DNA of 64,000 bases from Paramacrobiotus metropolitanus (lineage: Eukaryota; Tardigrada; Eutardigrada; Parachela; Macrobiotidae). The DNA lies in NCBI RefSeq assembly GCF_019649055.1, contig NW_026570387.1:160691-224690 (forward strand), in the 5' to 3' direction. Positions 20,658 through 57,962 of this stretch are shown here, piece after piece. The notes beneath the pieces are model-generated. The model worked only from the letters and a program-made list of their open reading frames with translations. It did not search any database and had not been told where the DNA came from. Position 1 is the first letter of the stretch, and each line of letters opens with the position of its first letter. A program made the translations under genes and the position numbers.

Positions 20658-22620
20658 TGTACGCATTGTTGTACTTCCGCAAATTTCTCTCGGGCGCCAG
20701 CGAGGTGAACTTCGGCAACACGGTGCTAGTGCGGCGCGATATCGGGTAGTGGTGACTAGGCTATGTGCAGGACATTGACGGCGATCGCTTCTTTATTGAC
20801 TTCGACTCGACCACCACCCGCCCCGAGTGGATCCACTCCCGTTACCTCTGGGCGCACAATTTTCTCTGCCAGTCGGCGTATTCGTATCGTGGTCGGTCCG
20901 TGCAGGTGGCGTAGCGGGACATCCCCGGCGGACCGATGGTCTTCCGACCCGGGACCATCACTCGCGAACTGAGCCACTTATTTAACGGTGTCCGCCTGGA
21001 GACCAGCACCCGCAGTTAGCGTCCAGTGTTAGCCGTGAGGCCGACGCAATGGACACCGTCCAGTCTGATTAGTGTTTACAAGAAGTCAAGTACTGAACAA
21101 GTTTTCAAAAAGATTGGATAACAACGAGAATTCTGCTACACCAAAAACCCTATTTAAGTTTGTTTTTACAGAACTGGAGGACATGAATATCAACGAGCTT
21201 TCGCATCCGATTCTGGCGTATATTCTGCTCCATTCCGATATGGTTACTCAAATGCGGATAGGCCGGTTTGCAGCCTTTTGAAAGTGGCAAAGCCTTTACG
21301 TTACGATCACCAGGTCAAATTAAGATACCTACACTTTTGAAAACCTTCAAATAAAAATTGAAGTTTTAAAAAAGACGGTAAAAATCGTAGTAGGACCTTT
21401 GATGGGGTTATTCACGTTAACAATGTCATCGGATAAACGTAAGATTACGCAGTTAATCATTTCAACTAGTAATAGTACACTTTGTCCATGCACTTCGTAA
21501 AAATCTGATATATTGGTACTGATGGCCGTATCTTAAATAAGGAGCAAGCAGCGTATAATCGCAGGGGTTTTATTGAATTGCCAGTATTCCCGTGACCTTA
21601 TCAACCAACTGCTGAATGAGAGGCGGAGAATGCTCGCTGACCGCCGCTGACAGACGCCGGCGCTGTTCCTCCGCCGTTTCCGAGCAGCGCAGACACAGGA
21701 TCGGAACTGATCTGCATATACGCGCCCCCAACGCGTTCCTCCGGCTCGCGCAACCTCTGGTGTCCATCGTCCAGCCAGGCGCTGTCGTCGACATCGTACA
21801 AGTGCAGCTTGTACGATACATTATTGACTGTTGGAATAGACACGTTGTAGTTAATGAGTTGCAACTGCTGGCACACCGTCCACCACTGACGGAGTGGACG
21901 GCACTCGTAGCTAGGCTTCTTTCCTATGTCGTCTCCAACATCCATCAGCACCGGGCGCAATTCCGGAAGGTCACCACTGTTCTTCAGAATGATTAGCGGC
22001 ACGCGCCTGTCTGTCGCTCTAAGGATGTGACGATAACCCGAATTCTGTTCCGTAGGTGAACGCTAACCCACGTTCGCTCGAGCATATTCAGCATTCTCAT
22101 CGAATCAGAAGGCCGCGCGCCGTCCACCAGGGCCACGGTCTGCGTCGCCGAGGTCAGGCAGTTGTCCAGCATCGTCACAAGCTGGTATGTATGAGAGTGG
22201 TATTCAGTGTTGAATTTCTTATCCGCCGACATCCTAACACCGGCGACCAGCCGCGGGATATCGAGCACCAGATACGTCTGGTGGCGACGTACTCCAGTAG
22301 AAGTCTCTATAGCGCGCACATTCTAATTGCAAAAATACTTGTCCAGGCACATAACGGTCTCTGATGGCACATCCATCCATCCATCGAAATATACATCCAT
22401 TCATTTCCGTCACCACAGGCTTGATTATCCGCCGCGCAATATTCGGTGGACCGTGGAAGACATCCAGAAGGACATGGATTGGAATGGAATGGATGGATGT
22501 TATTCGATGTATATTTCAGCATTGTTGGGAAGTGAACAGGCAAGTCCCTTTACATTCCGGTCTATGTCAGACGCTGGCCTATCCTGACCAATGGACCAGG
22601 ATCCGCATATTTCTTAATTT
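20658..22620 (+). pseudogene. F-box/Tudor-like family, unit A: rearranged pseudogene
   Basis: Exon 1 starts at 20658 (MYALLYFRK, SEVNFGNTVLVRRD, GYVQDIDGDRFFIDFDS) but has in-frame stops at three conserved positions: TAG for Gln, TGA for Trp and TAG for Leu. It degrades after about 21010. Exon 2 (21172-21265, 94 nt, MNINELSHPILAYIL) is an F-box exon. Exon 3 is on the opposite strand: it starts at 22322 after an acceptor and runs down to about 21583, with several frame changes and without its 3' end. That missing 3' end (QTLAYPDQWTRIRIFLNL, then a GTGAGT donor) sits on the plus strand at about 22568-22620. So most of exon 3 was inverted inside a plus-strand gene. Exon 4 is absent. An 85-bp inverted repeat flanks the displaced tail. 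Confidence 0.85.
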
Positions 22621-22870
22621 GTGAGTGATGTATTCACACGCATACCCGATGGAAGCTCGCTCAGCGACGGTGACGTAGAAAAAGCAAAAATGTGCCGCCA
22701 GATACGCTAATCGTAAGCATAACCGGCTACTCAGTAGTTTATTGCAATCTCGACCAGACATCTGCCACCCGTACTTCTAATTTCGCAATCCATGTCCTTC
22801 TGGATGTCTTCCACGGTCCACCGAATATTGCGCGGCGGATAATCAAGCCTGTGGTGACGGAAATGAATGG
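22397..22870. repeat. 85-bp perfect inverted repeat around the displaced exon 3 tail
   Basis: 22397-22481 and 22786-22870 are exact reverse complements, with a 304-bp spacer that contains the displaced exon 3 tail of unit A. Read on the minus strand, the right arm encodes IHFRHHRLDYPPRNIRWTVE inside an open frame (23036-22731). It may therefore be a fragment of an unrelated gene, which I do not recognise. Confidence 0.9.
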
Positions 22871-23274
22871 ACCAGAAGGCGCCGCCGTCTGGCTTACGCG
22901 CAATTCTCACGTCGACGCGATTTTTGCGATATAGATGTTCTCCCGTCAATGCTACTGTATTCGTATCTACTGTATCAACGTTCGCACATCGTAAACATTG
23001 GTAAAGATTAAGGATATCAACACTCACGATGTACATTACATTGTATACTTTACCGGTGGAGCATTATCAGAAATTGTAATGTGTGTCGTAGCGATAGCTT
23101 TGTTTAATTGGTGATAACTCAGTCAGTTTTGTGTTGCACAGTTGCACTATCACAGATCAGAGAATGCAAGAAGAATATAGGAAGAAAGTGGCACTCTGAG
23201 TATCTTATGAAGCATTTGCGATTTTACAAAATAAAATTTAGTTCCTGTCTTCAGTTTGATCACTATCCCGAGAA
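22871..23274. other. intergenic, upstream of the kinase-kelch gene
   Basis: Contains the rest of the minus-strand open frame that ends in the inverted repeat, then a presumed promoter and 5' UTR. No supported gene. Confidence 0.35.
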
Positions 23275-25345: not shown

Positions 25346-25987
25346 TCCAAATGTTTCAAGGGCCATTTTGGCCCTTCTGTTTCCTGAAATTACAAGCTGT
25401 TAAAGTGAAAGACGTAGATTGCTGATGCCATCTCTGCGCAAGGAGTGACAACTGGGCATCATTCATGCAGCCTTAAAAAGACTGAATGATGAATACGTCT
25501 GAGCGGCCTCACGGACGACTTAGTTGACTATGGGCTTACTGTTTTGTTCCACTCTTTCTTCTTTCTGTCTAGATTTCCGTCCTGTGACTAACGAAACAAG
25601 TTCCAAAATGCCTGGAATGTAAAATTTTTTGCCGTATTGTACGCACCTTGCCTTCGTAAACGAAGCCTTATGGAGGTATTGTTCCTTTGGTTTCTGTGTC
25701 GGTTGAGGAAAACACGATGAAAAACAAAACAGATTACCTTGTCCTTTTGCAATAATTTTGCGAGCGGTAGGAACGATCAGGTGTCTTTATTTACTCTGAT
25801 TAGCGGCACGTCAAATTCAGACAGTAAGCGGTGTACCTTTGACAGGCTTAAGCAGCACAGGGACGCTGTATAATGCGACATTAAATTCTCCTTTACTGGC
25901 ACAGATTACAGGTACATTGCAACCATATAGGAACATAAGGTATCAGATGTCGCATATAATTTAAAAGTGTACGCCTTCTCGGCCTGT
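25346..25987. other. intergenic, no gene seen
   Basis: 3' flank of the kinase-kelch gene facing the 3' end of unit B. Nothing recognisable. Confidence 0.4.
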
Positions 25988-26847
25988 TCAGTCTTGGAAG
26001 AAGGCGTCCAGTATGTGCATGGCGAGGCGGGTGTGCACAGCCACGTCCAGCTGCCGTAAATCGGCATCATCCCACCGTTGTGGAAGACCCTCGCGGCCCA
26101 CGCCGCTAAACCTTGAAAACAATGCACCATTATACTGCGAAATTATTATGTGCTATGCCGGCATGTGACCCGACTGTATCAGCTGTAAGGGAATCTGCAG
26201 GGATAAGTTTCATCTACAGGCTTGCACTGGTATCACCCTATATTTCGAGAAAAACACAGAACCACGATTCTTCTGCGCTTGATACTAAGCACTTACCCTG
26301 CAGAGCAAAAACTACTCCTGTTGTCAATTTTGATTTCAATACGCTTGCTGTAAACAAAGGTGATTCAAAGGTATTGAGATCGCAAGACTTTAACGTAGCA
26401 GATATGTCTAGCGTATCTGGCGCTGCACTTTCGCTGTTTGTACGTCACCGCCGTAGAGTGAAAATCCGTCGATCATGGGTGTACACTGTAACACATTAAT
26501 CATCACTTACAAGTTAAGAAACTTCCGAATGCCGATCCATGGGTCGGGATAGGCGAGCGTCTGCACCCATCGAGCCAACACCCCGCGACCTTTTCCACCA
26601 TCTCCCGACTAACGGCTGGACAGTGCTCGTTGGCCGCCGCCAGGAAGCGCCAGCGCTGTTCAGCAGCCGTTTCCGTGGCATGGGAACGTAAGAACGGAAT
26701 GGGATCTTCAGATATGCCTCGCGTGCGGCTGTCCAAGCCACCCTATGCCCGTCCTCCAGCCATGCTAGATTCTGGTTATAGCAGAACAGCCGCTTCAGTA
26801 ACGAATGCCGAGCGGACAGAATTGAGCCGGTATAGTTGACAATATAG

Positions 26848-27209
26848 GCGGTATAGTTATAGTTGACTTCTATGATATCTGAACTCGTACTTTACGGCTA
26901 TATTTTGTACTTTCACGCGTTTTCTCTTTTGTTTTGGTTTATACTTTTGGTTTTTCTAACCGCATGCGCTTCGCGCCTAAATAAGTCCGAGAGTTGCAGT
27001 ATTTTTGGCATCAGTTCGTTCTCATTCTGAGTTTGGCAGCGTCGGAGTTTTTCTATTAAAACAATGCATTCGTATTCTCGCTTCGCGTAGTTCGTAGCTT
27101 GCGCATATTATTTAGATATGCCTCATTGAAATTATCAGCTCATTCTCTGTCGTTGAGTCAGGTCGGTAGGATTGATATTACGGTACTATTTTACTGTACT
27201 CGTCTTTCC
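26848..27209. other. about 360 bp of foreign sequence inside unit B exon 3
   Basis: It has no similarity to the family. It contains a TAAATAAG TATA-like block followed about 20-60 bp later by GCAGTATTTTTGGCATCAGTTCGTT, which resembles a promoter. It could be a fragment of a transposable element. No clear target-site duplication was found. Confidence 0.45.
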
Positions 27210-27905
27210 GTCACCACTTCCGGAAGGTCACCGCTGTCTTGGGTAACGATGAGGGGCAGGCCTTAGCTCGGAGTGTGTGCCGCACAACTTTCATTCTGTC
27301 TCGCGTCTTCATTCTTTGAAGAAAATCCGCATATCCCGCTGCATCCACCATTGCTACAGCGTGCAGAGATATGGTGCGTTCCAGCAGCGTCACAAGCTGG
27401 TACGTATGATAGTGGCACTCAATGTCGAATTCCTCGACTTCCGGCTTTTCGGCTAGCAACAACGGGACGTCGAGAACCAAGTGCCGTTTGCTGTCGGTGG
27501 CATAATTTTCCAGAAGAAGCTTCCATAGCGCGCACACTCTAATAAAGCAAGGTCAACTTTTAAACCCCGCATCGATGGTTGGCATGTTTTGTTTTAACCA
27601 TGCGTGTATCTTCAAAACTACTGAAGCAAAGGCTTGCGTTGCAACATGTTGCAGTAGGCTCGCATTTCTCTCCAACCGGATGCTGCTCACATTTTCGGCA
27701 TTATACCGACCTGAACGAATTATCTGGCTAAAAGATACTGAGAACGGACTTGAAAATGCTTTTAGGAGCGCACCATCACCGCAGTTTTAGATGACAGATC
27801 GGAATGTACTGTAAAGACGTTACGAGTTCACTTAATTTTACGGAAACGCCGACTTACGCGCCTAGACGCAGCTGAGTAATCATATCGCAGTTCAGGAGAA
27901 TATAT

Positions 27906-27975
27906 GCCAGAACCTCCTTGATATGCATTTGAACCTCCTTGATATGCTCCTTGATACGGAACCTCCTTGATATGC
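27906..27975. repeat. tandem duplication of an 18-21 bp motif in unit B exon 2
   Basis: On the minus strand CATATCAAGGAGGTTC (with variants) appears three to four times in a row. Intact copies have a single ATGCATATCAATGAGCT at this place. The expansion disrupts the F-box. Confidence 0.8.
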
Positions 27976-29149
27976 ATTTCTTCAACATCTGCAAAATTTC
28001 AATCCAACTGTTTTCTGGGCTTAACGTTCGTAGGGCGGTAAAGCCTTTCAAAGCCTTAATAAAGTTCTTATACGGTCACAGAAAGTGCACTGGTACAGTA
28101 ATCTTACGAGATTTGGCTAACTGTATTTCCTTCCAACCGAAAACCAGTTTCCTTGTCATCAAATTGTTGGCTTGGTATGTCCTAAAATTTTGCGCTCAAC
28201 TCACCGGGCTGGAGGGCTTCCATACCCATACCGCAGTCCTTCCTGATGATACCAGACGCAGTACTTGGTTGCTGCTCAGTGAGGCATAGCTGGCAGGCTA
28301 TCTTCAGGTCATCGCCAGTCCAAAACATACTACGTCCAAATGCATCACCGGGCACTTCGGCGCAGCTAGACGAACGTCACCGTTCCCATGCCCACCCTCT
28401 CAAACACCCGACATCCCACATCCAAAGTATAGAACGCCCGGGCATCTGTAGGCTTGAAGGGCCTGCGCAATCTGGTACAGTAAAACGTCAGTGTCTCCTG
28501 GCCTAGAGGAAACCCTCGGGCCAACTGGCAGCTGGCGTCACACACCATGTCACCCGGACCCAACGTCATCTAACATGTCCGCTCAAAAATTTTGGCAACA
28601 ACGCCACATCCCGCAATAGATTCGCCGACTCGAAGGCGATGACGTGTTTCCGGTAGACAAATTTGGTATTTGTCATGAAGAAGCTGCGCCGGCTGTTGGA
28701 CGGCGGGAGTTTTCGGATAAACTGGCATATATCCACGACACAACAGTCCCCAACCGTTGTCAGGGTCTTGAGGCGGACGCCATAAAACACACCGGTCACT
28801 TCGTGGGTGATTTTCCCGGTCGGAACATCATCGGCCCACCGGGGGCGTCCCGCAGCGCCACCTGCACCGACCGGCCGCGATTCTGCGTCCCCGAGATACG
28901 GAGGACTTGGTGTGGCCAGAGATGTTGCGTGTGGATCCATTGGGCGTTAATGGTGCTGGCGTCGAAGTCAACGAAGAAGTGATCGCCGTCAACATCCTGT
29001 ACGTAGCCCAGCCAACACTGGCCGTTGTCGCGCCGCACTAGTACCGTGTTACCGAAGTTTACCTCCCGGACGCCCGTGTGGAACTGGCGAAAGTACAGCG
29101 GGGATGCAAACATGTTTACGGCCATGGTAAGTCTTTATTGAACGCCTAA

Positions 29150-37224: not shown

Positions 37225-40200
37225 TCAGTCGGGGAAGAATTCATCCAGAATGTGCATGGCTAAGCGACTGAGAACCGCCGCATTCAGTTGCCGCAAGTCA
37301 GCGCCATCCCACGGCTGAGGAAGGCCATCGGGTCCAACACTGCTGAACCTGATCAACCAACAGACCTGCTGCACAATTACTACTTATTGGACAATGTTCG
37401 TCTAAATGATTGAGAGGCTTATGCCGATAACCAAACCACAAGTAGAATTTCGAGAAAACACACGAGTCACGATTACGCTGGCCGTGTTAAAAATTCTAGT
37501 AATTAAAATGAGTTTTTTATAAATCCTGGAGATGGGAGAATGTTAGATTGTCTGAATCTGGCGACTTTTTTAAACCAGAAAGAATTAGTACGGTGGAAAA
37601 TAAATTAGTAGATGCGTATTTCCATCACAATCCTTACATACTCGTGCAGTTTTATAGTCTGCTGCTCGGATACGACTTTGCGCTGCTGTCTGTCGACTGT
37701 CAGCATCATAAACATTTTTCTCTGAGTCCAGCATCACTTACAGATTGAGGAATATGCGGATACCGGTCCATTGGTCGGGATAGGCCAGCGACCGCACCCA
37801 GCGAAGTAACATCCCCGTGACCTTTTCAGTCATGGTCTGACTGACAGGCGGGCAGTTGTCATTGACCGCCGTGATAAAGCGCTGGGACTGTTCAGCGGCC
37901 GTCTCGGTGCAGTGGAAACGCAGGAACGGAATACGAATCTGCAGATGTGCGCCGCGTGCCTTAACCATGTCGCCCGCCCTCTGACCGCTGTCGTCCAGCC
38001 ATGCCAGGTCGGCGGGAGCGAAGAAGAACAGCTGGTCCATTAAGGAATTGCCAGAACCCGTTGGAATGGCTGCGTTGTAGTCGACCAGCAGTAGCTGCCG
38101 GCACACTGTCATCCACTGACGAAGGCCGCGGCATTCGTACCGCGAAGCCTCCTCTCCGGGCATACGTCCAGTATCCATCAAAGCCGAGAGCGCTTCCGGA
38201 AGATCACCGGTGTTTTTGATGACGAGTAATGGCACACGACGATCTTTGGCGCCGAGTATGTGCCGGATCAGCCGCACCATGTTCCGGCACTCTCTCCTCC
38301 GATCAAAATTTAGCTGCCTCTCGAAGTCTGACAAATCTGCTTTTGAGATCGTAGCAGAATGTCCCTGGTCGTCCAGCAGTACCACGGTGTGTATCGATAC
38401 GGTCAGGCTTCGGTCCAGTAGCGACACGACTTGGTATGTGTGAAACTGGCATTCAGCGTTGATTTCGTGTTGCACAGGTTTTCCAGCGAGCAGTCGTGGT
38501 ATGGTGAGAATAATCTGCCGCTGGCTCGCAGCGTACTCTCCCAACAGCAGCGACCAGAGCGCGCATACCCTTTAAAACTTAAACTATTTCAAAGGTGACA
38601 TGTTAGAGCTTTATATCCGCCGGCGGTGAGAAACGGGCTAAGTAAGTAAATTAATGCTAGACCGCCTGCAGAATAAATTACCGTAATTATCGATTTATAA
38701 CCCCAGGGTTACAAATATTTCGAACGCCTCACGGGGTGGGCTCTAATTACGGGCATGGTCTTGTACTCGTATTTAGGGGGCTTCAAGTTTTCAAACCAAC
38801 GTTTTGGGATTTCACAATATGGGCTTTACGGCATTTAATTAAGCCCATGGGCCTATATTTCGGGAGGGGGGCGGCTTCTAATTTCAAACGACCTTAGGGG
38901 TGCGCTTTAATTACATGGGGGAGCTCGAATCCGATAATTACGGTATACAGCGTATACTGTATGCCACCCCTTGCACTGCGAAGTTTAGCAACTTCAACCA
39001 AAGTGTTCATTTACCCAATCAGTTGCCGCAAAGTTGCTTTCAGCGCTTAGTCGTCCACTGACCATCGTACATAGTCAGTGGACGACTAAACGAATGGAAT
39101 AGTGCATCTTAGCAAAAAAGTAGACGTACCGATTTAGCCGTAATTGAGTTACCACATCGAAATGCAGCAAAATGTGCCCCAAAATCGGATATGGGAGATC
39201 ATTAATGTGCACTGCTTCCTCATCTACAAGATAAACCGATTGTTCAACCCAAAACTGATGACTCGCAATTTTCCCATCGACTGTCACGAGTCGAACTAGC
39301 GCGTTTTGTTAGACCCTCTTAGTGTTCTTCGCTATCTCAGGCTTTCTTACAGATGTTTTTAGATTTCTTGGTTTTATTAGCCGTCGCCAGGTGACGGTCG
39401 ACGGAGTGTGAGTCGACAATATAATGTCGACCAACCAGAATTCTCGTTAGTATCCAATGTTCTTGGAACCACTACGCTAAATCACGGTGCACGTCGGTGT
39501 CACGGTGTACACTGTAACCGCCTATGAAGGCAGTCAGGCATAGAAGTGCCCCTATTTAATGGTCTTTCTACTGGATTGAAAGTGTCTCTGATCTGGAATT
39601 ATCCATTTTATGTATTTGCTCCCATTTATTCCTTTTAGTGAATAAAAGCTATTATTTAGGGATACCCCAGGTTTCCCCACATTGTAGGTTTATAGGATAT
39701 AGGTAGTACAGTGGAACCTCGCAACCCTGAACACCCTCGGTACGTAATTTCCTGTTCAACGTTCGAGGTGTTCACCGTTCGGGGTGTTCAAAGTCGGATC
39801 GAAGTTCCACTGCACTACAGAACCTATGACACTAACCAGGTTGCACGGTCCCCATTATATCCGCCTCACTGTTAATACCCGGCCTTATCCTCGGCTTCTG
39901 CGCCGTGAGGCATTCCAGGCAGGCTTCTTTCAGGGCATCCGCCGTCCAGAACTTACTGCGTCCGAATGCATCACCGTGCACTTCGGCGCAGACGAACGAC
40001 ACCGTCCCCGTGTCCACCCGGGCAAAAACCCGAAAGTCCACATCCACGCAATAGAACGCCCGGTGATCGGTAGGGGCCGAAGGTGAATGTAGTCGGGTGC
40101 ACTGGAACGACCTCTCCTCCTCATCGATGGGAAAGGACCGGGCAAACTGGCAGCTGGTGTCACACAGCGTGTCAATGTCACCCCTGCCCAAAGTTATCCG

Positions 40201-41830: not shown

Positions 41831-44800
41831 ATGTACGCATCACCGCTGTACTTTCGCAAGCTGCACACGGGCGCTCGCGAGGTGAACTTCGAGAACACGG
41901 TGCTGGTGCGGCGCGACACCGACCAATGGTGGTTGGGATACGTGCAGGAAATCGACGGCGACTACTTTCTCATTGACTTCGACTCGACCACCAACCGCCC
42001 CGAATGGATCCACTCCCGTCATCTTTGGCCAGACAATTTCCTCCGCCAAACGGGGGCTTCGAATCGTGGTCGTTGCGTGCACGTGGCAGTGCGGGATACC
42101 TTCGAAGGACCGATGGTGTTCCGACCCGGGACGATCACGCGCGAGGTGGCTGCCATGTTTTACGGTGTCCGCCTTGACGGTGACCCTCCAACTAACACGG
42201 TTCTCATCGCGGATGCGTCCCAATTCGTCTCGCAACTGCCGACGCCCGATGTCCGGTGCATCTTCTTCGGAGGCCACACGAAATACGTCTACCGCCAGTA
42301 TGTCATCAACTTCAAGCAGGCGCGGTTATTGCGCGCTGTGGAGTTCTTGCCCCGAGCTGTGGCACGGGCGTGCCGGGTCACGTTGGGTCCTGGTGATGGG
42401 GTCTGCGGCGTTGCCTGCCATTTTGACTGGTCGGTGCCCATCGGCTCGGCGATCGCCATGTTCCATTGCGCCGGATTGCATCGTCCCACACCGTCGGGGC
42501 CCAGCGGAATTTAGGCGAAGTTTTATAGATTCGATGTGGGTTGTCGGGTGTTTGCGCGGGTGGACACGGGGACGGTGACCTTTGTCTGCGCCGAAGTGCA
42601 CGGTGATCCCGCCGGACGTAGTATGTACTGGACTGAAGATGCTTTGAAGAAGGCCTGCCGGGACTGCCTCAGACAGCAACAGGAGCTGCGAGCGCCTAGT
42701 ACAAGGTGGCTGAGCAAAATGGTGGTCTGGTTTACCAAGGTGCGCTGGGCTCCTTTAATGCTTGAATCACAAAATTTTTAGTTGCGTTCGAAAGAGCAGT
42801 GTTTACAACATACACCAGTACAAGTAGCTTTAAGCAAGAATCTGTATTTTTTATGAACATTTTTGAAAAACTGGGTGGTGCTGGAGAACGAAAACATTTG
42901 CTTAACCTATTTTTAAAGGGAATGACCCAGTACATGGGATCAAATTCGTGCGCATGCACGAAAACTTTCACTTTCTCGCTCACTCTTAATTTCCCAAACA
43001 CTTATTGTTTTGTTTTGTGAAGTACAGTAGCAAGTGAATTTTTATACATTGGCTCAAAAACCGTTTGTGCGCACAACATTCGGTTCGGGAGTTATGGTTG
43101 TTAAGCAATTCCAAAAGGTTTACTACTAACTGCGCTCAGGTGTACTGAAAATCCAATAGACCGACCTACTTTAAATCCTATATGTAAACGCACATTTGCA
43201 TGAAGATCGCATGTACACAAAATGGTTTTTCGTGAACGCTGCAGAAAGTCGAAGTGCCAAAAACTGGCCAACTGAAACTCATTTTGGCAATTGGACGATC
43301 TCTTAGCGCCATTTGCCCATTAAACCGACATTTTTTGTTCTAGACTACTGTGCAAATTAGAATGCGAAGAGTGATTCGCGAAAATCACACCAAACGTGGA
43401 CACCGCCATTCCGTTCACCAAGCCGGTAATATGTATCTGCGAAGGTTTGCATCCAATTACAAAATATGCTTTGAAAGCAAGGCGAAAGAGTGTTTTAGAG
43501 TGCGTGGTCAATTTCGGTAGATGTGCACGCCGGATTACTGTACTTGCAGAGGTGGAAGAGATCCACATCAATGACCTTCCGTATCCGATTCTGGCGCACA
43601 TTCTGCATTGTCTCGATCTAATTGGTCAGCTGCGGATACAGCGGTAAGTTGTCAATACTTTTTGCATAAGTGCTTTTCATGTAGGTTGACAAGTTGAAAT
43701 ATTGTAGTGAGAAGGAGTGTTGGTGTTCAGAACAAAAGAATTTACAAACATACTGAGACCTATCTTTTGATTGCCACTTGCAATTAGGGTGTGCGTGCTG
43801 TGGAAACTTCTGTTGGAACAGTCTACCGCCAGTCAACGGCACATGATTCTCGACTTCCCGCTGCTGGCCGCAGGAAAACCGGTACATGAGAAATCCGGTG
43901 ATAGCGCCTTTCGATTAAACGTCGAAAGACACTATTATACATACCAACTCGTGGCGCTGCTTGACCGCCACCTTGGCTTAACCAATATGGACACCGTGGC
44001 GTTGGTGGCGACTGCGGGACATACGGGTTATAATTCACGGAAAGCATGTCACGCTCAGATGCGCGATATCCGGCACATCTTCCAAGCCAAAGATCTTCGC
44101 CTGCCGCTGATTATTATCAAAGACAGCGGAGACCGTCCGGAAGCGGCATTGATGCATATGACCGTCATGACGGCGGAGACGGACGGGTACCGCTGCCGGG
44201 TGCTGTCCCAGTGGATGGGCGTGTGCCAGCAACTGCTGCTGATTAACTACACCACGTCCCTGCCGACGGGTCTGCATTCCCTACTCGATCTGCTCTTCGG
44301 CCCCGACGCCAGTAAGACGACCTGGGAAGATGGTGGGGATGTGGCGGCGCGCTGGATGGAGCGCGACACGCTGACCATCACTATTCCGTTCCTGCGCTTT
44401 CACTGCACGGAGACGGGTAAGGAGCAGCGCGGGCGCTTTATCGCGGCGGTGAATGACCACTGTCCGGCCGTCAGTCAGGGGATAACCGCAAAGGTCACCA
44501 AAATGTTGGCACGCTGGGTGCAGACGTTGGTCTATCCCGATCAGTGGACTGGGATTTGCCAATTCCTCATCCTGTAAGTGCTATATGGTTTAGAACACTA
44601 CCTGACAGCTTAAATTTCAACACTACAAACCAACCCAGATTTCTAACTTCTTGTACCGATTTATTTGGTAACCTACTCAAAACAACCGTAGCATTTCCTT
44701 CGTCAACACTTTAACTAAACCGCTGCTTGAGAAAAGCAGTAGAACCTAAATGATCTAGTACGTACAACGCAGTACTGCTTAAAATGGCACTCGCTGTTGC

Positions 44801-45002
44801 TGTTGTTCTCAGGTTCAGCAGTGTGGACCCTGATGGCCGTCCACAGCGGTGGGATGACGTTGACTTGCGGCAATTGGATGTGACGGTGCTCAGCCGCTTA
44901 GCCATGCACATGCTGGACGAATTCTTCCAAGACTGGTTGGAGCCGATGCATGTCGATGGAGGGAAACCTTTCACATGTCTTCAGCTGTCTAAAAAATACT
45001 AA
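41831..45002 (+). pseudogene. F-box/Tudor-like family, unit D: near-complete, premature stop and stop loss
   Basis: Exon 1 starts at 41831 (MYASPLYFRKLHTGAREVNF). It is open except for one in-frame TAG at 42512-42514, just before RFDVGCRVFARVDTGTVTF in the same frame; its 3' splice donor near 42730 is unclear. Exon 2, 43550-43643 (EEIHINDLPYPILAHIL). Exon 3, 43788-44573, intact and slightly shorter than in unit C. Exon 4, 44813-45002: the usual TGA after EFFQD has become TGG, adding 22 residues (WLEPMHVDG ... SKKY). All visible junctions are in phase. A product truncated at the TAG would keep the Tudor-like domain and lose the F-box, so it could still be expressed. Confidence 0.85.
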
Positions 45003-45697: not shown

Positions 45698-48600
45698 TCA
45701 GTCTTGGAAGTATTCATCCAGAATGTGCATGGCTAAGCGACTGAGCACAGCCACTTCCAGCTGTCTCAAATCAACATCATCCCACGGCCGAGGACGGCCA
45801 TCCGGACCAGTACTGCTGAACCTGATGTAAAAAAACAAAATCCTTGCATGAAAAGGATAATTAACATAAGCGAAGCAAAGCTTTGAAACGAAACACTCTA
45901 GTAAGTACTAAATAATCAAGTTATGCGTAAAAAATAACTTCCGAAAGCAAAGCAAGCATTACTATACCCTAACCCTGCTTGACGGAAATTTGTACGCTAT
46001 GAGCGATACGGTGCTGTACTGCTGCATAGCCGCATAAATTTTCAGCCGATTCGCGTTCGCATGCACTAGCTGCAAGCCGTGCATGTGAATGATGAACTCG
46101 ATCGTAAAAGTGCTTGTGGCTGCACTGTACAAATTTCCGTCAAGTGCACGGTTAGGGTACACTACTTACAGTTTGAGAAACATGCGAATGCCGACCCATT
46201 GGTCGGGTTAAGCCAGCGTCTGCGCCCAGCGTGCCAACATCCCCGTGACCTTTTCGATCATTGGCTGGATCACGGCCGGACAGTGTTCGCTAACCGCCGC
46301 TATGAAACGCCGGCACTGTTCCGCGGCCGTCTCCGTGTAACGGAAACGCAGGAAGGGAATGCTGATTCGCAGATGCGCACCGTATTCACCCCCTCCACGC
46401 CACATTCGATGGCCGTCCTCCAGCCAGGTCCAGTCGGCACTGAAAAAGAAATCCGCGTCCAATAAAGAATTATTAGAACCCGTCGGAATGGTCACGGTGA
46501 GGTTGACGAGCAGCAGCTGCTGACACGCACGCATCCATTGGGACAGCTCACGGCACTCGTACTGGTTAGCCTCCTCTCCCACGCTGCCTATATCCAGCAA
46601 CACTGAGTGCGGTTGCGCAAGATCTCTGCTTCCTTTAATTATGATTAGTGGGACACGATGATGTTTTGCTTTGAGTGTATGCCGGACAACCCGCATTCTG
46701 TCACGCAAATCGTTCCTCTTCATATAATCAGCCAGTCCGGCAGTGTCGAGCATATCTATCATCTTCATTACATTGGAATGTCCTTCGGTGTCCACCAACG
46801 CCACAGTGTGCGTCCAGCTGGAAAAACTGCGGTTCAGCAGACGGACAAGTCGGTACGTATGATAATTGCATTCTGCGTTAAACTGTTCATCCACAGGTTT
46901 TTCAGCGAGCAGCCGCGGTATGTCGAGAAGCAGATGCCACTGTTTTCCAGCAGCGTAGTCTTCCAAAAGGAGCCTCCATAGCACGCATACCCTTCAAATT
47001 ACAAACACGCTTTTTCACATGCGTTTACAACACAATCACAGTGCAGTCTAATGATTTTAATGCACTGCCGTGAAACCGCAGATAAAAATTCATTCAACGT
47101 TGGCTGGCATTGAGTTGCGGATGAAATACATACCTACAAGCCGGCTCCACAATTGATTGCGTAAAGATACATGAATGATGTACTGGAAATCGGCGTTTAA
47201 AGTGACAGCCACTGCATTACACACTTAGCGTAACCCATGAATTCCGATTTTTCACTGCACATTTACACAACCCATTATGAATCTGGCTTGTAAGATTCCG
47301 AAAACTATAAAAGCGGTGGACGATTTGGGCCGGCACGGGCTCCGATGTAAATGGTCAGCAGGAAGAATACCACGACACGACTGTATAAGCGGGGAAATCA
47401 CCCGCGGACCGGAAACGACCGGTTTTCCAGCAAGAATGCAGTTAAAAGATCTTTCCGTGAAAGATAAGATAAGGCCAGTGCGATCACACTGGTACCATGG
47501 GAGCGCGGAAAGCCTCTGGAAGACGATGTAAGTGACTCATGTAACCATTGTATTCTGCGTGTACTAACTCGCTGCTTCGGACATCAGCCGTACCAGTGCG
47601 AACGCCGAAGCAGCTGCTGAACACGCGGAAAGGGGGAAACTGACAAAACACGCCTAGCTATAACCAAGATACGATTTTGTAGGTGCAGCCTTTGAAATTT
47701 ACGGACCCTGAAGAGATGGAACCAAAAGCTAGCGGAGAAGGTTGGAAACGATATAGCGACTTTGACGAAAGAAGCGGGCGAAAGAGTGTGTTAAGCAGCG
47801 ACTCTCTATGCAAATACAACGTGGAAGTGCTTCTGGTATGAATTTTGTGGCTGGTACTTAGTTTGTAACCGATATTATATGACACTTGTTAAAAGGCACT
47901 TGTAGCCTTATTAAAGCGGTTTCTTAGATTACAGGTACTGTATTACCTACCACTACCGTTACCGTGCAAACCAAACACTCGTCCTACCATTTTCCCGAAT
48001 TTAAATTTGATACCATTTCCCTTTTCACCTTGAGTAAAGCCTGAAGTGACCTACACTAGCGATTTATTTGCACTTGCATAAGCTGTAGCCGAGTAATCAT
48101 GTCGAAATGTAGCAGAATGTTCGCCAGAATAGGATATGCCAGCTCATTGATATGCATTTCTTCGCCATCTGCAAAAATTATCGGCTTATTAAGCCTGCTT
48201 TGATTCCACTAGATTTCCGGGTTATCGTCCTTGTTGTAAACACTTACCGGTTTGGAAGGTGTCAGTTAGGCCATCCTCACAGAGAATACCAGGAGCGAGC
48301 CTCGGTTGTTGCGCCTTGAGGCAAGCGTCGCACGCTTCCCTCAGGTCGTCGTCAGTCCAGAACATACTGCGTCCGAATACGTTGTCGTGCATTTCGACGC
48401 AGACGAACGTCACCGTTTCGGTGTCCACCCTTGCAAACACCCGACAGCCCACATCAAACATGTAAAACGAGAGCGAATGCAATCCAGCACAGCGGAAAAT
48501 CTGTTCCCCCGAGCCCACGGCATTTGCCAGGGCGAATTCGCAGTCCGCGTCACACTCGGTGTCACCCGGACCCAACGTGATGCGACACGTCCGTCCCACA

Positions 48601-49124
48601 AATTTCGGCAACAGTGTCACATCACGCAATAGCTTCGCTTGCTCGAAGGGGACGACGTGCTTCCGGTAGACGAATGTCGTCCCGCTCTCGGCAAAACTGG
48701 GCTTGTTAGGGATCGGCAGTTCCGTGACGATCTGGCACGTATCGACGATGCAGGCCTGGTTGTGATCAGCACCATCTAATCGCACACCATTAAACATATT
48801 GTTACACAATTCGCGAGTGATAGTTCCCGGCCGGAAGACCATCGGTCCGCCGGGGACGTCCCGTAGCGCCACCTGCACGGACTGACCACGATACGAAACA
48901 CCCGACTGGCGAAGGAATTCGTGCGGCCAGAGCTGACCGGATTGGATCCATGCGGGACGGTCGGTGGTCGAGTCGAAGTCAACGAGGAAGCGGTCGCTGT
49001 CAATATCTTGAACATAGCCCAACCACCACTGGCCGGTGTCGCGCCGCACCAGCACCGTGTTACCAAAGTTCACCGCGCGTGTGCTCGTGCGAAACTGTCG
49101 AAAGTATAGCGGTGATGCGTACAT
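45698..49124 (-). pseudogene. F-box/Tudor-like family, unit E: nearly intact
   Basis: Exon 1, 49124-48248, fully open (MYASPLYFRQFRTSTRAVNF ... LTDTFQTG, then GTAAGT). Exon 2 starts at 48168 (GEEMHINELAYPILANILLH). Its normal CG|GT donor is lost, and the nearest GT (exon end 48074) would give 95 nt instead of 94. Exon 3, 46991-46170, is open except that the conserved Tyr codon in LAYPDQW is TAA, a stop 19 codons before the exon end. Exon 4, 45821-45698, intact (FSSTGPDGRPRPWDD ... DEYFQD-stop). Intron 2 has grown to about 1.1 kb by insertion of a decayed LINE 3' end. If spliced correctly the product would lack only the last 60 residues. Confidence 0.85.
47277..47870 (+). mobile_element. decayed LINE 3' end in unit E intron 2
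   Basis: DDLGRHGLRCKWSAGRIPRH, TTGFPARM and, further on in other frames, TSA.VRTPKQ and SMQIQRGSASG match the zinc-finger and endonuclease-like region at 29185-29844. It carries frame changes and a deletion of the central catalytic part, so it is older than the 29-kb copy. Confidence 0.7.
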
Positions 49125-49762: not shown

Positions 49763-52299
49763 TCAGTCTTGGAAGTATTCGTCCAGAATGTGCATGGCTA
49801 GGCGACTGAGCACAGCCACATCCATCTGTCTCAAGTCAACGCCATCCCACGGCTGTTGACCGCCAATACTGCTGGCCCTAATTACAAAAAGGTCATTTTT
49901 CAAAAAGCTAATCGGCCGAAGCGAAGCTAAGGTTTCTCTATGTTCAGAGAAACGGTATTTATTGTTGTTTTTCAAGAGATTTAGTTTAAAGCGAAATAAC
50001 GCTTTGCCATAGAAGACAATAATTTCAAGCAAAACACGTTTTAATTTTAACATGACCTACAGGTTGAGAAAGATGCGGATGCCAGTCCATTGGTCGGGAT
50101 AGGCCAGCGTCCGTACCCACTGCCCATGCATGCTCGTGACCTTTTCGGTCATCCGTCGGGTAACTGTCGGACAGTGGTTATTAAGCGCCGCTATCAATCT
50201 CCGACACTGTTCCACGACCGACTCCGTGCAGTAGAATCGCACGAACGGAATGACGATCCGCAGATGCGCACCAGGATGAAGTTCGGACACCATCCGGTGC
50301 CGGTCCTTCAGCCAGGTCCAGTCGCTGGCTTTGTCAAAAAGCCGCGCATGCAGTAGGGAACTATCCCGACCCGTCGGAATGGCGAAGTTGACGAGCAGAA
50401 GCTGCTGACACGCACGCATCCACTGGGACAGCGCATGGTACTCGAACTGGTTAGTCTCCTCTCCCACACTGTCAATATCCGGCAACACCGGGCACAGCAC
50501 TATTCAGCCTTCATACGCTCGCGCTGGAGTCCAGTCTGCGCATCACACAGCTGATACGTCTGACCAGTGGCCAGCGACATGCCGCCAGCATTCTTTCACG
50601 CCGTGACAGACGCTCAAGAACTAACTTCGCGTGCACATCGCCCCGTTTAGATATTAGGCCAGACTGCCATCTTTGTTCTCTTCCCGCATTATCACGCGGT
50701 ATTTATTCAGCATTACTTGTCAATAAAGCTTGATCGTGAGTCCTCGGCACTTGTCTGTTACAAAATTGTAAAACGAAATTTCATTTTTTGAAATTCAGTA
50801 CAAACTGTCTTTACGCCAATGATACAAATCATTTTGCTAGAAAATGTATTACAGGGTCGAAAAATGAGTTTTGGAGTGCGAGAAATGTTCATGTGCATGT
50901 TAGCTGTTAGCATGGGCTGTAGCCGCCAGATGAAATGGCACCAAGTTTAGATCCGGCCGACAGAAGGACGGACGCGGCCGTAGCCTGCCACCTGCCGCAT
51001 ATCGCACAGCGCCGACGCACACGCTACGTGGAACATCGAGCAGCGTGTGCGTCGTTATCCGTCCAGTCGGCGTCACCAGACTCTGTGGTGCCATTAATCA
51101 TCTAGCGGCTACAGTACACAATATTACGATCCGTACTGTACACTGTACATACGCTAGTACAGGAAGTACAGGAATTTGGTATTATGTACCGGGTTGTCGC
51201 GTACTGTATATGTTCGAAATATACTCACCGATTTAACCACAGTTGAGCAACTATATCGAAATGTAGCAGAACGTTCGCCAAAACCGGATACGTCAGGTTA
51301 TTGATATGTATTTCTTCGTCATCTGCAAAAATAATCCGCTTATTAAATGTGCTTTTCTCACACTAAAATTCTGGTTACTATCCAAATATCAACGTTACAC
51401 CACCTCCAGTTACTGTTTTACTAACCAGATTGGAAGGCGTCCTCACTAAAAATACTAGGCACAGACGCTAGCTTCGATTGCTGCGCAGTGAGACATTCCG
51501 TGCACGCTTCCTTCAGAGCATCTTCAGTCCAGAACATACTGGGCCCGACAGCGGCGTCCCGGTGCAATTCGGCGCAGACGAACGTCACCGTCCCCGTGTC
51601 CACCCGTGCAAGCACCCGACACCCCACATCGAACCAGTACATTGTGGCGGACGTCGGGGGTAGATGCGTGGGACAGTGGAAATTCGAGTCCCCTGAGCCA
51701 ATAGGAAACGAGCGGGCGAAATGGCAGCTGGTGTCAAACACGGTATCACCCGTACCCAACGTGATCCCGCAAGCCCTCCCTACAAATTTCGGCAACAAAG
51801 CTACATCTCGCAATGACTCCGCTTGCTGGAAGGCGACGACGTGCTTTCGGTAGACGAATTTCGTCCCGCTTTCGGCAAAACTGGGCTTTTTATGGGTCGG
51901 CAGTTTCGTGACGATCTGACAAGTATCGATGATGCAGGCAGGATTAGCGCCGTCTACGCGAACACCATTAAACATATTGTCACACAATTCGCGAGTGATG
52001 GTCCCCGGGCGAAAGACCATCGGTCCGCCGGGGATATCGCGTAGTGCCACTTGGATAGAACGGCCACGATAGGAGGGTCCCGTTTGGCGGAGGAAATTGT
52101 GAGGCCAGAGATGACGGGAGGGGATCCACTCGGGGCTGTTGGTGGTCGAGTCGAAGTTGAGGAAGCGGTTGCCGTCAATATCCTGCACGTAGCCCAACCA
52201 CCACTGATCGGTGTCGCGCCGCACCCGCACCGTGTTCCCGAAGTTCACTTCGCGAGCGCCCGTGTGGTATTGGCGAAAGTACAGCGGTGATGCATACAT
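49763..52299 (-). pseudogene. F-box/Tudor-like family, unit F: exon 3 truncated at its 5' side
   Basis: Exon 1, 52299-51426, is open with an in-frame loss of one residue (RFLNFDS). Exon 2, 51322-51229 (EEIHINNLTYPVLANVLLHF), with a GTGAGT donor. Exon 3 is recognisable only from about 50497 (LPDIDSVGEETNQFEYHAL) to 50061, so about 130 N-terminal residues including its acceptor are missing. In their place, 50500-51228 shows no family similarity; a short frame there reads SLATGQTYQLCDAQTGLQRE. Exon 4, 49877-49763, intact (WDGVDLRQMDVAV ... DEYFQD-stop). Exons 1 and 2 could still be transcribed. Confidence 0.85.
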
Positions 52300-52477: not shown

Positions 52478-52850
52478 CGATTTAACAGCAGTTGAGTAGC
52501 CATATCAAAATGCAGCAGAATGTCGCCACAATCGGATACGGAAGCTTATTGATATGCATTTCTTCGTCATCTGCAAAGATAATCCGGTTATTATTAAACG
52601 TGCTTTTCTGACACCAAAAAAAATTCTGGTTATGTGGCGCATGGCAACGTGTGCCAACGTCGTACTACTGACCTATGTTGTATTTCAGTGTGTTTTTGGT
52701 ATTTTGTTATTGCGTTGGTTAATTATTAAAGAGACGACGCTCCACGTCGCGGCAGGTTAATAACCGAACTGGTTATTCACCATCTTGCACGCAAGCCACT
52801 AACCAGGTTGGGAGGTATCTGCTATACCATAAATGGTCCGTTCATACAGG
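52478..52850 (-). pseudogene. F-box/Tudor-like family, unit G: remnant of exon 1 end and exon 2
   Basis: Reading left on the minus strand, about 52850-52804 ends CAACCTG before GTTAGT, as unit C exon 1 does. Then exon 2, 52570-52478, is 93 nt, one base shorter than normal, which shifts the F-box frame (EEMHINKLPYPI, then lost). Exons 3 and 4 are absent; unit F begins 180 bp further on. It looks like a tandem copy largely deleted. Confidence 0.75.
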
Positions 52851-53496: not shown

Positions 53497-54841
53497 ATGT
53501 TCGCATCCCGGTTGTACTTTCGCCAATTCCACACGGGCGCCCGCGACGTAAACTTCGGCAACACGGTGATGGTGCGACGCGACAACGGGAAGTGGTGGTT
53601 GGGATACGTACAAGATATTGACGGCGATCGCTTCTTCGTTGACTTCGACGCCAGCACCATCAACGCCCAATGGATCCACACGCAACATCTCTGGCCGCAC
53701 CAAGTCCTTCGTATCTCGGGAACGCAGAATCGCGGCCGGTCGGTGCAGGTGGCGCTGCGGGACGCTCCCGGTGGGCCGATGGTGTTCCGGCCGGGAAAAA
53801 TCACCCACGAAGTCGCCAATCTGTTTTATGGCGCCCGCCTCAAGACCCCGACCACCGCTGGAGACTGCTGCATCGTGGATATATGCCAGTTTATCCGAAA
53901 ACTCCCGCCGTCCAACAGCCGGCGCAGTTTTTTCATAGCAAATACCAAATTTGTCTACCGGAAGCACGTCATCGCCTTCGAGTCGGCGAATCTATTGCGG
54001 GATGTGGCGTTGTTGCCGAAATTTTTGGGGCGGACGTGTCAGATGACGTTGGGTCCTGGTGATACGGCGTGTGACGCCAGCTGCCAGTTCGCCCGGGCGC
54101 GGAAACACTGACATTCTACTGTACAGTGCACAGTCCCTCGATGCCTTCCGATCCCCGGGCGTTCTATAATTTCGACGTGGGCTGTCGGGTGTTTGCCCGG
54201 GCGGCCACGGGGACGGTGACGTTCGTCTGCGCCGAAGTGCACGGTGATGCATTGGGACGTAGTATGTTCTGGACGGACGATGACCTGAAGATAGCCTGCC
54301 AGCTATGCCTTACTGCGCAGCAACCCAGCACTGCATCTGGTATCATCCGGGACGGCTGTGGTATGCAAGCCCTCCAGCCGGGTAAGTGTTGAGCACGAAA
54401 TTTGAAAACAACCGGAGATGAATCTAATCAAGAACTTTTAAATGTGATACCACAGTTAGATCGGCCGTGGTCCAGAACTGCATCACATGACTTTTGTTTT
54501 TGAATACGTCCAATCAGAATCGTGCTGGCACGATGCCCCAAACGATCCAACCCAGTTTCAAGATGACCTTGAACCTTAAAAAATTTTTGCCTGGATACAA
54601 TATGCAACATATAAATTATTAAATAAGCAAATTAAACGAAATAAATTGAACTCATTCTCGTACACCACTAACCACAAAATGAAGTACGCAATCACAAGTT
54701 ACCCTATCGATTTTCGTTGTCGGCACATTTCTGATATAATGGTAGGTCTTAACCATGCGGACATCGGGCTGTTCGATCTTGGCAAGACCACCCTTCTAAA
54801 CAATTGCTAAAAGCGAAGAGCCGGATTTATATTATTTTAAG

Positions 54842-55025
54842 GTGAGTGAGTGACCGAGATACCTTCACTGACCAGCGAGCAAAATCGCTAATAAATGAGT
54901 GAGTTACCAAGTTACCACTCGCTAATCGAGTCAGTGATTTACCGAGCTATCACTACTGTCCAGTGAGCAAAATCGTTAAACTGACTCAGTGAGTGACCGA
55001 GCTACCACAGCTATCCAGCGCTCAA
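54842..55025. repeat. degenerate tandem repeat, about four units
   Basis: Units begin AGTGAGTGACCGAGATACC, AGTGAGTTACCAAGTTACC, AGTGATTTACCGAGCTATC and AGTGAGTGACCGAGCTACC. Two units contain CCAGYGAGCAAAATCGYTAA. Unit length varies between about 35 and 55 bp. Confidence 0.7.
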
Positions 55026-55696
55026 TACGCTACGTGAATGAGTATTCCTAGGGGCCATGGATCACAAGAAACACGGAGGCGAAGCCGCAGCTGTTTCTTG
55101 TAAATGCATAACACCATAAAGACATAAATGTCCGGCTCAAATATGATCATAAACGATACAGCTCGGACTTGGTACACACAAGAACATAAAGATATGTCCA
55201 ACCCTGCAATCCACGATATCCCCTGTCCACGGCCATAAATCCCCATGGTCGTAACAGAGAAAACTCCGCCCATCCAATAGGTGCGTTCCAGTAGGTTCCA
55301 CTGCATATTGATGTGCGTCCAGCGCCGTTGTTTGCCTCGTTTTACCTGCAACACAATCTGCAGCAGGAAATTTCTTACTGCTTTACTTGCCTGTTTTACC
55401 GGCCTGCGTATGTTAGCCCAGAAACTCGACGGATTAATTTTTGCAGATGATGAAGAAATGCATATCAATGAGCTTCCGTATCCGGTTCTGGCACACATTC
55501 TCCTGCATTGCGATATGATTACTCAACTGTGGCTAGATCGGTAAGCCGGCTTTTTTTATAACTAAAATGCACCGTGAAGTTCGAAAAAAGGATCGCTGTA
55601 TGATGAGACGTCGGTGCAGCTGTTTGCACTAGAACCTTTCAAAATCTTACGCTGCCTCATCAAATGTCGTGAGCAGTAATTTGTTTTCACGCCAAT

Positions 55697-56524
55697 AAGT
55701 AGGTTGCGTTTTGCACGGCCTCATGATTAACGGCAAAATTAACGACGATTTTAGCGTTGTTAATTCAACGTTCCGTTAATTCGAATAAGAGGTTGCGTTA
55801 TAAACTAAACAATTTACTGCTCCTGGTATTAACGTGAGGAACTAGGTATCAGACAATCAAACAATAAGAGTGTCTCCGTCAAAATATTGTATTCAGTCTT
55901 GAAAAACTTAAAACAACTTCGTTTACCAGCGTAAAAATAACAAATTAGATCTTTTTTATATGGCACACACACTTTAGAAAGAAATGTGGTTAAAGTTTCC
56001 GCGGAGACGTTCTAAAAACAGTCATTCCATTCTAAAATGCGTGACTAGCAGTTGCACTTGAGAGATAGTTGGGGCCGTCAGGCGACAAAGTTGCTGCAGA
56101 ACTCCAGCTGCTGAAACAGTGAAGTATTCGTGTAACTGTGTTTTGATTTTTGCAGTAATTTTTACATTTATGAAGAAGTAAATTATTTTGATTTCAATAA
56201 TCTAGCTGGCAAAAATCTCACTGACAGCAGTGCAACTGTCGAGACTGGTACGGTTTTCGAAAATTCGAGTCGAGTGGGCAACTCAGGATTGAATGCCCAG
56301 GCAGAAATTCACTGGGTAGACTGTCTCGCCTATGCAGTCATCGTGCTCAATGGTCTATGTAAGCACAGTCGTTCATTACTGAATTTCAACGTCGTTATTA
56401 ACGAAACGATACCCCCTTCGTTTCGTTAATAACGACGGGCAGTGCCGTTTAAACGTTCGGTAATCGTACCCCGTCGTTAATACTGTCGTCAATCGTATGC
56501 CTTCGTTGATACCGCAACCTGCTT
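55697..56524. mobile_element. non-autonomous DNA element in unit H intron 2
   Basis: Ends AAGTAGGTTGCG and the reverse complement AAGCAGGTTGCG (one mismatch in 12), enclosing 828 bp with subterminal TTAACGACG-type motifs in both halves. A perfect 20-bp hairpin is at 56390-56437. No coding capacity. The target-site duplication is unclear. Confidence 0.55.
56390..56437. repeat. perfect 20-bp hairpin
   Basis: 56390-56409 (CGTCGTTATTAACGAAACGA) is the exact reverse complement of 56418-56437, with an 8-nt loop. It lies inside the intron 2 element and may be its internal foldback. Confidence 0.85.
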
Positions 56525-57425
56525 AATGTGTGGGAATTGCCTGCAGTAAGAAAATTTCAGACATGTCCCTTAATTAGGGTGTGCATTCTGTGGAGACTTC
56601 TTTTGGAAGATTACGCCGTGGCCCGACAGCGCCTCCGCATTCTCGATATCTCATGCCTCATGGCCGAAACCCCCGTAGAAGAAGAATTCAACATCGAATG
56701 CCATTATCAAACTTACCGACTCGTGCTGAGGCTGGACCACAGCCTGACCGTATCGACGCAGACACTAGCATTAGTGGACACCGTGGGATGTTTCGATCCA
56801 ACTAAGGAAATAGACTGGCAGGACGCCGCCGGATACGCTCATTATATGAAGAGGCACGATTTTCACGACCGACTGAAGCTTATCCGCCATACACTCAAAG
56901 CCCAAAATCAACGTGTACCGTTGATCATCATCAAGGACGGTGGTGATTGTCCGGAATCTGTGAGCCCGGTGTTAATGGATATCAGAGACGAGGGAGAGGA
57001 GGCTCCCCGGTACGAGTGCCGTGCACAGCGCCAGTGGATGGAGGTGTGTCAACAGTTGCTGTTCGTCAACTACACCGCCGCCATTCCAACGGGTCTGCAT
57101 CATAAGTCCATACTAGACGCGCTGTTCTATTACGGTGCCGCCGACCGGACGTGGCTGGAGGATGGGCACCGGGTGGAGCGCGGGATGCATGAACAGGGAG
57201 CGCATCTGCAGATCCACATTCCGGTCCTGCGTTTCCACTGCACGGAGTCGGCGGCGGAACAGTGTCGGCGTTTCATCGTGGCGGTTAATGACAACTGTCC
57301 GCCCGTTAGTCAGCAGATGATGGAAAAGGTCACGGGGGTGCTGGCACGTTGGGTGCAGACACTGGCCTATCCCGGCCAATGGACCGGCATCCGCAGGTTC
57401 CTCAACCTGTAAGTGATGTTTGATA

Positions 57426-57697
57426 CAGACCTGGGCAGTTACAACTTAACTCGTTAACTTGGCGCGAGTAATCGAGTTTTAACGTAGCTCTGTAGCGTAA
57501 CTCGCTACCAAAGAAACTTGACTCTGACGTAACTCTCATAAAACTGTTATATATGGTCTATGATAGCGTAGCCCGTGGTATAACTCGAAACACGGTTTTA
57601 TTTGCATGACCAGCGCAACTCGTAGCCGCGTAACTCGCACGCTCCCTTTAACTCGTAGCTCTTAACGGTGGGGTGGGCGCATAATTACCCAGGTCTG
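57426..57697. mobile_element. hAT-like MITE in unit H intron 3
   Basis: 272 bp with ends CAGACCTGGGCAGTTA and, reversed, CAGACCTGGGTAATTA (two mismatches in 16). CAG...TGGGC ends are usual for hAT elements. The interior is rich in AACTCG repeats. No transposase, and no matching 8-bp duplication was seen. Confidence 0.65.
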
Positions 57698-57962
57698 GCT
57701 GGAACTTTGATATGTGTGGTTTTCTATGCTCCTTCGTTTGTAAAACATTATTTCGTTCTACCGTTTTTTTGAAAATGGTGAACCCTCGCTCTGCTTCGAT
57801 CGACTAAGAGTGCAGTGACCTTGTTTTTTTGATCGCAGGTTTAGTAATATTGGTCTGAATGACCATCCTCAGTCGTGGGATGACGTTGACTTGAGACAGC
57901 TAAATGTGGCTGTGCTCAGTCGTTTAGCCATGCACATTCTGGACGAATTCTTCCAAGACTGA

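Follow-up and report, generated by a model that had tools for sequence, protein, structure and literature searches.

The F-box is a tag that normally delivers proteins for destruction, and F-box genes have expanded explosively in individual nematode and plant species; the tardigrade family described here is a further example, with a Tudor-type module ahead of the F-box. For Caenorhabditis, F-box gene numbers from 39 to 1426 are given for five species in the available part of one paper (PMC8665587), the accessible text of another treats the F-box clusters of nematodes as ultra-large families (PMC5041008), and in the A2 genes, as described in excerpts of a third, a transposase helix-turn-helix domain was added before the F-box and the FTH domain (PMC12062965). 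The DNA analysed here, hereafter the window, is a stretch of 64,000 nucleotides from the tardigrade Paramacrobiotus metropolitanus (contig C167, bases 160691-224690), and it holds one cluster, mostly decayed, of a very large gene family, as seen from clustering, trees, a mosaic unit and broken copies. The proteins of this family are best explained, with a probability of roughly 0.6, as adaptors of the SKP1-cullin-F-box (SCF) type that carry an N-terminal tandem Tudor/Agenet module and combine constant docking with variable C-terminal recognition. The large tardigrade gene family itself is real, and it is apparently undescribed.

Units of the window and extent of the family

Four exon profiles, built on 28 NCBI family proteins (alignment A2) and run in all six frames over the window plus a further 199 kb of related DNA, detected eight units or remnants of one four-exon gene type in the window, with all four exons detectable in six of them. 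Because a 320-nucleotide block is repeated, inverted, at 91% identity in the window and the profile matches reach expectation (E) values down to 1.6e-120, a chance origin of the repeated units is excluded. The sole uninterrupted model in the window is unit C (U3; 37225-40743, minus strand), whose exons of 907, 94, 828 and 124 nucleotides, separated by introns of 613, 560 and 393 nucleotides, encode 650 residues, and both these exons and this product had been correctly set out in a preliminary description of the DNA. P0001, the NCBI model for unit C, agrees in all three introns and differs at the N-terminus. The exons of unit C and the other units, with the evidence for each in parentheses, are as follows.

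Unit C, exon 1: 39837..40743, minus strand; 907 nucleotides ending in phase 1; codes for the N-terminus and three regions, namely Tudor-like barrel 1, barrel 2 and one of alpha/beta type (open reading frame; exon profile, E 3.4e-117; donor identical in P0001)
Unit C, exon 2: 39130..39223, minus strand; 94 nucleotides; first two thirds of the F-box (profile, model, NCBI model)
Unit C, exon 3: 37742..38569, minus strand; 828 nucleotides; end of the F-box (VCALW) and a further region (profile, model, NCBI model)
Unit C, exon 4: 37225..37348, minus strand; 124 nucleotides including the stop; short conserved C-terminus (profile, model, NCBI model)
U1: 20666..22618, plus strand; exon-1 pieces, exon 2 and exon-3 tail (exon profiles)
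U2: 25991..29113, minus strand; degraded, with exon 1 in four pieces and scattered frame breaks (exon profiles)
U4: 41831..44936, plus strand; four exons, with a single in-frame stop in exon 1 (exon profiles)
U5: 45701..49124, minus strand; four exons, with a stop in exon 3 and an exon 2 lacking a donor at the 94-nucleotide place (profiles)
U6: 49766..52299, minus strand; exon 1 open, exon 2, and a partial exon 4 (exon profiles)
U7: 52489..52565, minus strand; remnant consisting of exon 2 only (exon profiles)
U8: 53497..57959, plus strand; exon 1 frame-broken, exons 2-4 open (open reading frames, exon profiles)

Exon 3 in particular is damaged in different ways: a large middle piece is inverted inside U1 (21579-22277, minus strand), the middle is missing from U2 (profile positions 93-189), and U6 lacks the first ~118 residues. 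The U5 locus carries a short NCBI-predicted protein, P0003, and exon 3 of U8 matches the 429-residue NCBI-predicted protein P0023.

Exon matches from the window and the fetched stretches were assembled into 52 chains, and 19 of the 39 four-exon chains gave uninterrupted gene models (1 in the window, 18 elsewhere) with a script that accepted only frames in agreement with the profile matches and mildly favoured a 94-nucleotide exon 2; the remaining 20 gave no model under these rules, which is not proof of a dead gene. Intron phases were 1, 2, 2 in all 19 models and in all three complete mapped NCBI models, the latter being an independent check, and the shared four-exon plan with these phases, proposed for the eight units in the preliminary description, is thereby borne out by profiles and models alike. 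Exon 1 also ends in phase 1 in the distant members P0025 and P0027, the later exons of which lie outside the fetched stretches. The F-box exon had been called a constant 94 nucleotides, which applies to five of the eight window units, where such an exon lies between AG and GT (U1, with a weak donor, U3, U4, U6 and U8), and to 10 of the 19 models; in the other models it measures 97 (seven), 85 (one) or 100 nucleotides (one). This exon stops two thirds of the way through the F-box, and the terminal 'VCxLW' falls in exon 3.

Searches of the genome (169.8 Mb, 533 contigs) with exon 1 of unit C, a 71-residue Tudor piece, P0025 and P0021 returned 124, 150, 149 and 143 matches, respectively, and these overlap, leaving 198 distinct loci spread over 59 contigs. 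A further search with exon 1 of P0027 returned at least 156 matches, of which 150 were used, adding 147 loci, none of them among the 198, on 56 contigs. The family total is therefore at least 345 distinct exon-1 loci on 102 contigs, which is a minimum in that each search scored only part of its first-look candidates, and a count to which loci from the Tudor-piece, P0025 and P0021 searches were added if new as judged by eye and in which some loci may be allelic copies (proteins from contigs C523 and C11 are 96% identical, with a synonymous divergence, dS, of 0.04). A search with exon 3 gave 142 matches. Loci are strongly clustered, as 134 of the 198 main loci have a neighbouring locus within 20 kb compared with a mean of 9.0 under random placement, a control that disregards contig ends; on C11, 19 chains lie within 80 kb, and in 17 of these most of exon 1 is present.

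Among the 124 exon-1 matches of unit C, 111 are stop-free. We considered whether the window preserves only the remains of an extinct family, and rejected this since the exons are mostly open genome-wide. The picture of one intact gene among ruins is local to the window: the statement that only unit C is intact holds there and fails for the family, given the 18 uninterrupted models elsewhere. The description of the family as lineage-specific agrees with three protein searches, in which all matches were P. metropolitanus proteins named 'uncharacterized protein'; the first two scored the 8000 candidates with most shared words, the third, with the Tudor part of P0010, gave 21 matches among 60 candidates, and the presence of other tardigrade proteomes in the database was not established.

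Domains of the predicted proteins

In the predicted structure of the family member P0005, the mean predicted local distance difference test (pLDDT) score is 92-95 in blocks 21-60, and Tudor/Agenet structures occupy the top ranks in both Foldseek and VIA-align. The nearest structural match of its exon 1 is the tandem Tudors of human FMRP, and 4ova aligned to the model over 194 residues with a root-mean-square deviation of 8.0 (VIA-align). The predicted fold of this member is a Tudor-type barrel, as the preliminary description had anticipated, and the model supports a Tudor/Agenet fold with tandem barrels at the N-terminus. Six aromatic residues (W33, W34, Y37, F50, W59 and W66 in P0005 numbering) are nearly invariant, a pattern that may hint at an aromatic cage for methyl-lysine or methyl-arginine. 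Homology to FMRP at the sequence level is unsupported, with the Pfam profile KH_9 (KH0) matching the genome at the FMR1 orthologue locus only and the family profile giving no significant hhalign alignment with this orthologue, a single sequence from the tardigrade itself; no KH domain was matched at E<=0.1 in the Pfam scan sample of 27 family proteins (19 + 8), and the first PDB sequence match of the family, the FXR2 Tudor, is non-significant (E 0.46). The genome also holds a separate set of loci with a Tudor_FRX1-type domain in frames of ~98 residues. One of these, L036 (C106:65813), scores 3.6e-7, above the Pfam cut-off, and has no match to family exons 2 to 4 in 3.1 kb and a weak exon-1 match (E 0.21).

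The putative F-box is recognised by curated profiles, weakly in most members. PF00646 matches at E<=0.1 were found in 13 of 19 proteins, the best at 1.4e-5, and two members exceed the curated cut-offs, P0020 with 28.7 bits against 24.3 (F-box-like) and 24.9 against 20.5, and P0028 with 22.5 against 20.5. The motif positions recur through the family. The F-box repertoire of P. metropolitanus is generally large, with at least 150 loci above the Pfam cut-off when 150 of 1080 first-look candidates were scored; these were not individually compared with the Tudor-F-box family, and most lie in frames longer than its exon 2. Three of these loci were sampled: one combines an F-box-like domain with a weak LRR_9 match, one an F-box with an unassigned region, and the third has no open frame of 150 residues in the stretch. 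A family of F-box genes at the C35 loci (L031), to which the second sampled locus belongs and in which the F-box and C-terminal region stand in a single 324-residue frame without a Tudor exon, matched the Tudor-F-box family profile over 111 columns (hhalign probability 87.6, E 3.5e-6). The alignment takes in the F-box and continues into the first part of exon 3, most of which remains unaligned, and this match may be a lead to the origin of the family's F-box half.

In the P0005 model, strands and helices alternate through the exon-3 region. The Foldseek and VIA-align results for P0005 are filled by the Tudor part, so that the absence of F-box or exon-3 entries among them is uninformative. The 27 proteins gave no match at E<=0.1 to FTH (PF01827) or FBA_2 (PF07735), the C-terminal domains of the Caenorhabditis F-box A1, A2 and B families, and no known family takes in the whole protein in profile searches of Pfam, PDB and NCBIfam, the last being a weak test because NCBIfam covers prokaryotes; the expectation that no broad known family would claim it was confirmed to this extent. 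In the literature, no paper pairing 'Paramacrobiotus' with 'F-box' was found within a scope that leaves aside most subscription papers and bioRxiv preprints. Among the matches listed on tardigrade F-box or Paramacrobiotus expansions, on F-box with Agenet/Tudor, on tardigrade gene families and ubiquitin and on the species itself, no title or opening part of an abstract concerns this family. The available main text of a comparative paper on Hypsibius and Ramazzottius contains neither 'F-box' nor 'Tudor' (PMC5531438), and 'Tudor' is not mentioned in the accessible part of a P. metropolitanus transcriptome paper (PMC11191345).

Evolution of the copies and competing explanations

The window units group with the C217 and C481 copies in a single clade, which has a support of 1.0 in trees of exon 1 and of exon 3 (40 sequences each). 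Within this clade U8 is a mosaic, its exon 1 being 89% identical to U2 and 70% to C217_5761 and its exon 3 being 83% identical to C217_5761, while C217_5761 and C481_4139 share 85% identity in each of the two exons. These identities point to recombination or gene conversion, a claim that rests on the identities themselves, as the exon-1 tree node parting U8 and U2 from the other window copies has a support of 0.30. Clustering, the monophyletic local clade, the differently broken copies and the mosaic unit support birth-and-death evolution, the mode suggested in the preliminary description.

Among pairs above 50% identity, with model C381_13341 (short exon 1) left out, the mean ratio of nonsynonymous to synonymous divergence (dN/dS) was 0.23 for the Tudor part, 0.25 for the F-box exon, 0.36 for exon 3 and 0.21 for exon 4 (29 pairs), and the ratio of nonsynonymous to synonymous proportions (pN/pS) reached at most 0.73 over sliding windows of 30 codons (28 pairs). 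As judged from these ratios, the intact copies are under purifying selection. The uninterrupted models have a median pairwise identity of 42%. Across 28 proteins, mean identity was 0.67 in Tudor barrel 1, 0.45 in the F-box region and 0.33 in exon 3, so the most conserved part is the added Tudor barrel 1 and not the F-box, and among the large regions exon 3 has diverged most. The higher conservation of Tudor barrel 1 argues against the Tudor part as the variable receptor and for shared docking. On the SCF-adaptor reading, the centrally placed F-box would bind SKP1, the conserved barrel 1 would dock all members on one common ligand, possibly a histone bearing methyl marks, a methyl-arginine partner or an RNA-protein partner, and the fast-diverging exon-3 region would choose the protein for ubiquitination. 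The family gains copies by local duplication and recombination and loses them by ordinary mutation, as the clustering, the trees, the mosaic unit and the broken copies show. A more specific version, in which an F-box gene of the Paramacrobiotus lineage acquired an FMRP-like reader and then expanded to one of the largest ubiquitin-adaptor families of animals, with the constant Tudor part anchoring all members at one shared site, chromatin or a germ-granule-like body, and hundreds of variable C-termini selecting different targets for surveillance of the genome or germline, is doubtful when taken as a whole.

Several observations weigh against the adaptor reading. On the Tudor side, Agenet scores of 16.5, 13.5 and 14.6 bits all fall under the Pfam cut-off of 27, and Tudor_4 scores of 14.7 and 12.9 bits compare with a cut-off of 25.8; one A1 member matched Tudor_4 at E 2.2e-4. 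On the F-box side, six of the 19 proteins have no PF00646 match even at E 0.1, unit C scores 15.4 bits against 24.3, a precomputed Pfam F-box is present in only three of 28 family proteins (P0005, P0012 and P0020), and the F-box blocks of the P0005 model (291-340) have a low mean pLDDT of 38-52. The genome has four SKP1-type loci, and therefore no large expansion of SKP1 alongside the family. The dN/dS pairs are non-independent, with dS mostly 0.75-1.2, and dN/dS does not, on average, indicate diversifying selection in exon 3. Some of these points, namely the low-confidence model blocks and the members without a match, along with the greater conservation of Tudor 1, would fit proteins that are not SCF adaptors at all, the F-box-like segment being a relic or another helical hairpin in FMRP-like or chromatin Tudor scaffolds. 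We regard this as quite improbable given the recurrence of the motif positions, the two members above curated cut-offs and the low mean dN/dS of the F-box exon.

Genuine F-box genes might instead have multiplied mainly by cluster recombination with tolerated extras, most members having no distinct function, a process for which 'genomic drift' is the term in the plant F-box papers, as far as their available text goes. Broken copies are common, U8 is a mosaic and neither dN/dS nor pN/pS detected diversifying selection, all of which would be consistent with such drift. However, dN/dS values of 0.21-0.36 in combination with open models at a median identity of 42% point to a long-kept function for many copies, and drift is somewhat unlikely as the explanation. 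The preliminary description had tentatively extended to this family the link, drawn for F-box receptors elsewhere, between rapid turnover and conflict with viruses or selfish elements. Receptors in an arms race, with exon 3 recognising viral, transposon or microsporidian proteins and thereby driving turnover, would be consistent with the divergence of exon 3 and with the resemblance in size, clustering and decay to Caenorhabditis F-box families for which a role in immunity is proposed in the portions of the sources available (PMC8665587, PMC12062965), but no region or sliding window has a ratio above 1; the link gained no support from the selection analysis, and the explanation is unlikely. 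That some clusters are selfish toxin-antidote loci, systems in which nematode F-box genes have been found according to the excerpted text (PMC12062965), is very improbable for hundreds of dispersed loci, and no paired toxin-like gene was noticed among the frames of the window, where no search aimed at one was made.

Other elements of the window and comparison with known systems

Direct repeats with 99% identity lie at window positions 58496-58701 and 63795-64000, and between them are a gag/protease frame (61056-63497, minus strand; Retrotrans_gag, 7.2e-11) and a 606-residue frame without a Pfam match (59380-61197, minus strand); together these apparently represent a young long-terminal-repeat element extending to the window end. 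A retroelement remnant occupies 211-2733 (plus strand), with a reverse transcriptase match of 7.8e-17 in the frame 1235-2113, and at 18042-19388 (minus strand) an open frame of 449 residues contains a zinc knuckle and matches PNMA/gag weakly. At 23660-25345 (plus strand) a frame with a protein-kinase domain precedes one with Kelch repeats, and a further Kelch frame lies at 35049-35741.

The nearest parallel to the tardigrade family is the Caenorhabditis A2 group, which, in the part of the paper available, is likewise expanded and has an extra N-terminal domain and a divergent C-terminus (PMC12062965). The two differ in that the N-terminal module is Tudor-like in the tardigrade and a transposase helix-turn-helix in A2, and in that the 27 tardigrade proteins scanned match neither FTH nor FBA_2. 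The tardigrade loci also far outnumber the A2 genes of C. elegans, given as 30 in the same excerpt (PMC12062965). From the Caenorhabditis FTH and FBA_2 families, whose description as far as available includes no Tudor exon (PMC8665587), the tardigrade family is set apart by a C-terminal region that matches neither domain in the proteins scanned.

The FMRP/FXR module of two Tudor/Agenet barrels and KH0 is the best structural match to the modelled exon 1 of P0005; FMRP/FXR has KH domains, whereas the tardigrade family has no match to one in the proteins scanned. The readers Sgf29, AGDP1/ADCP1, UHRF1 and SETDB1 share the tandem-barrel arrangement of the family (VIA-align). These proteins act in histone-acetyltransferase, DNA-methylation or methyltransferase settings, and to our knowledge none of them carries an F-box. 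As a result of this work, several hundred 'uncharacterized' tardigrade loci can now be named and grouped. The telling difference from the known systems is that the best conservation lies in the added domain and not in the F-box, which leads to a testable prediction of constant docking combined with a variable choice of target.

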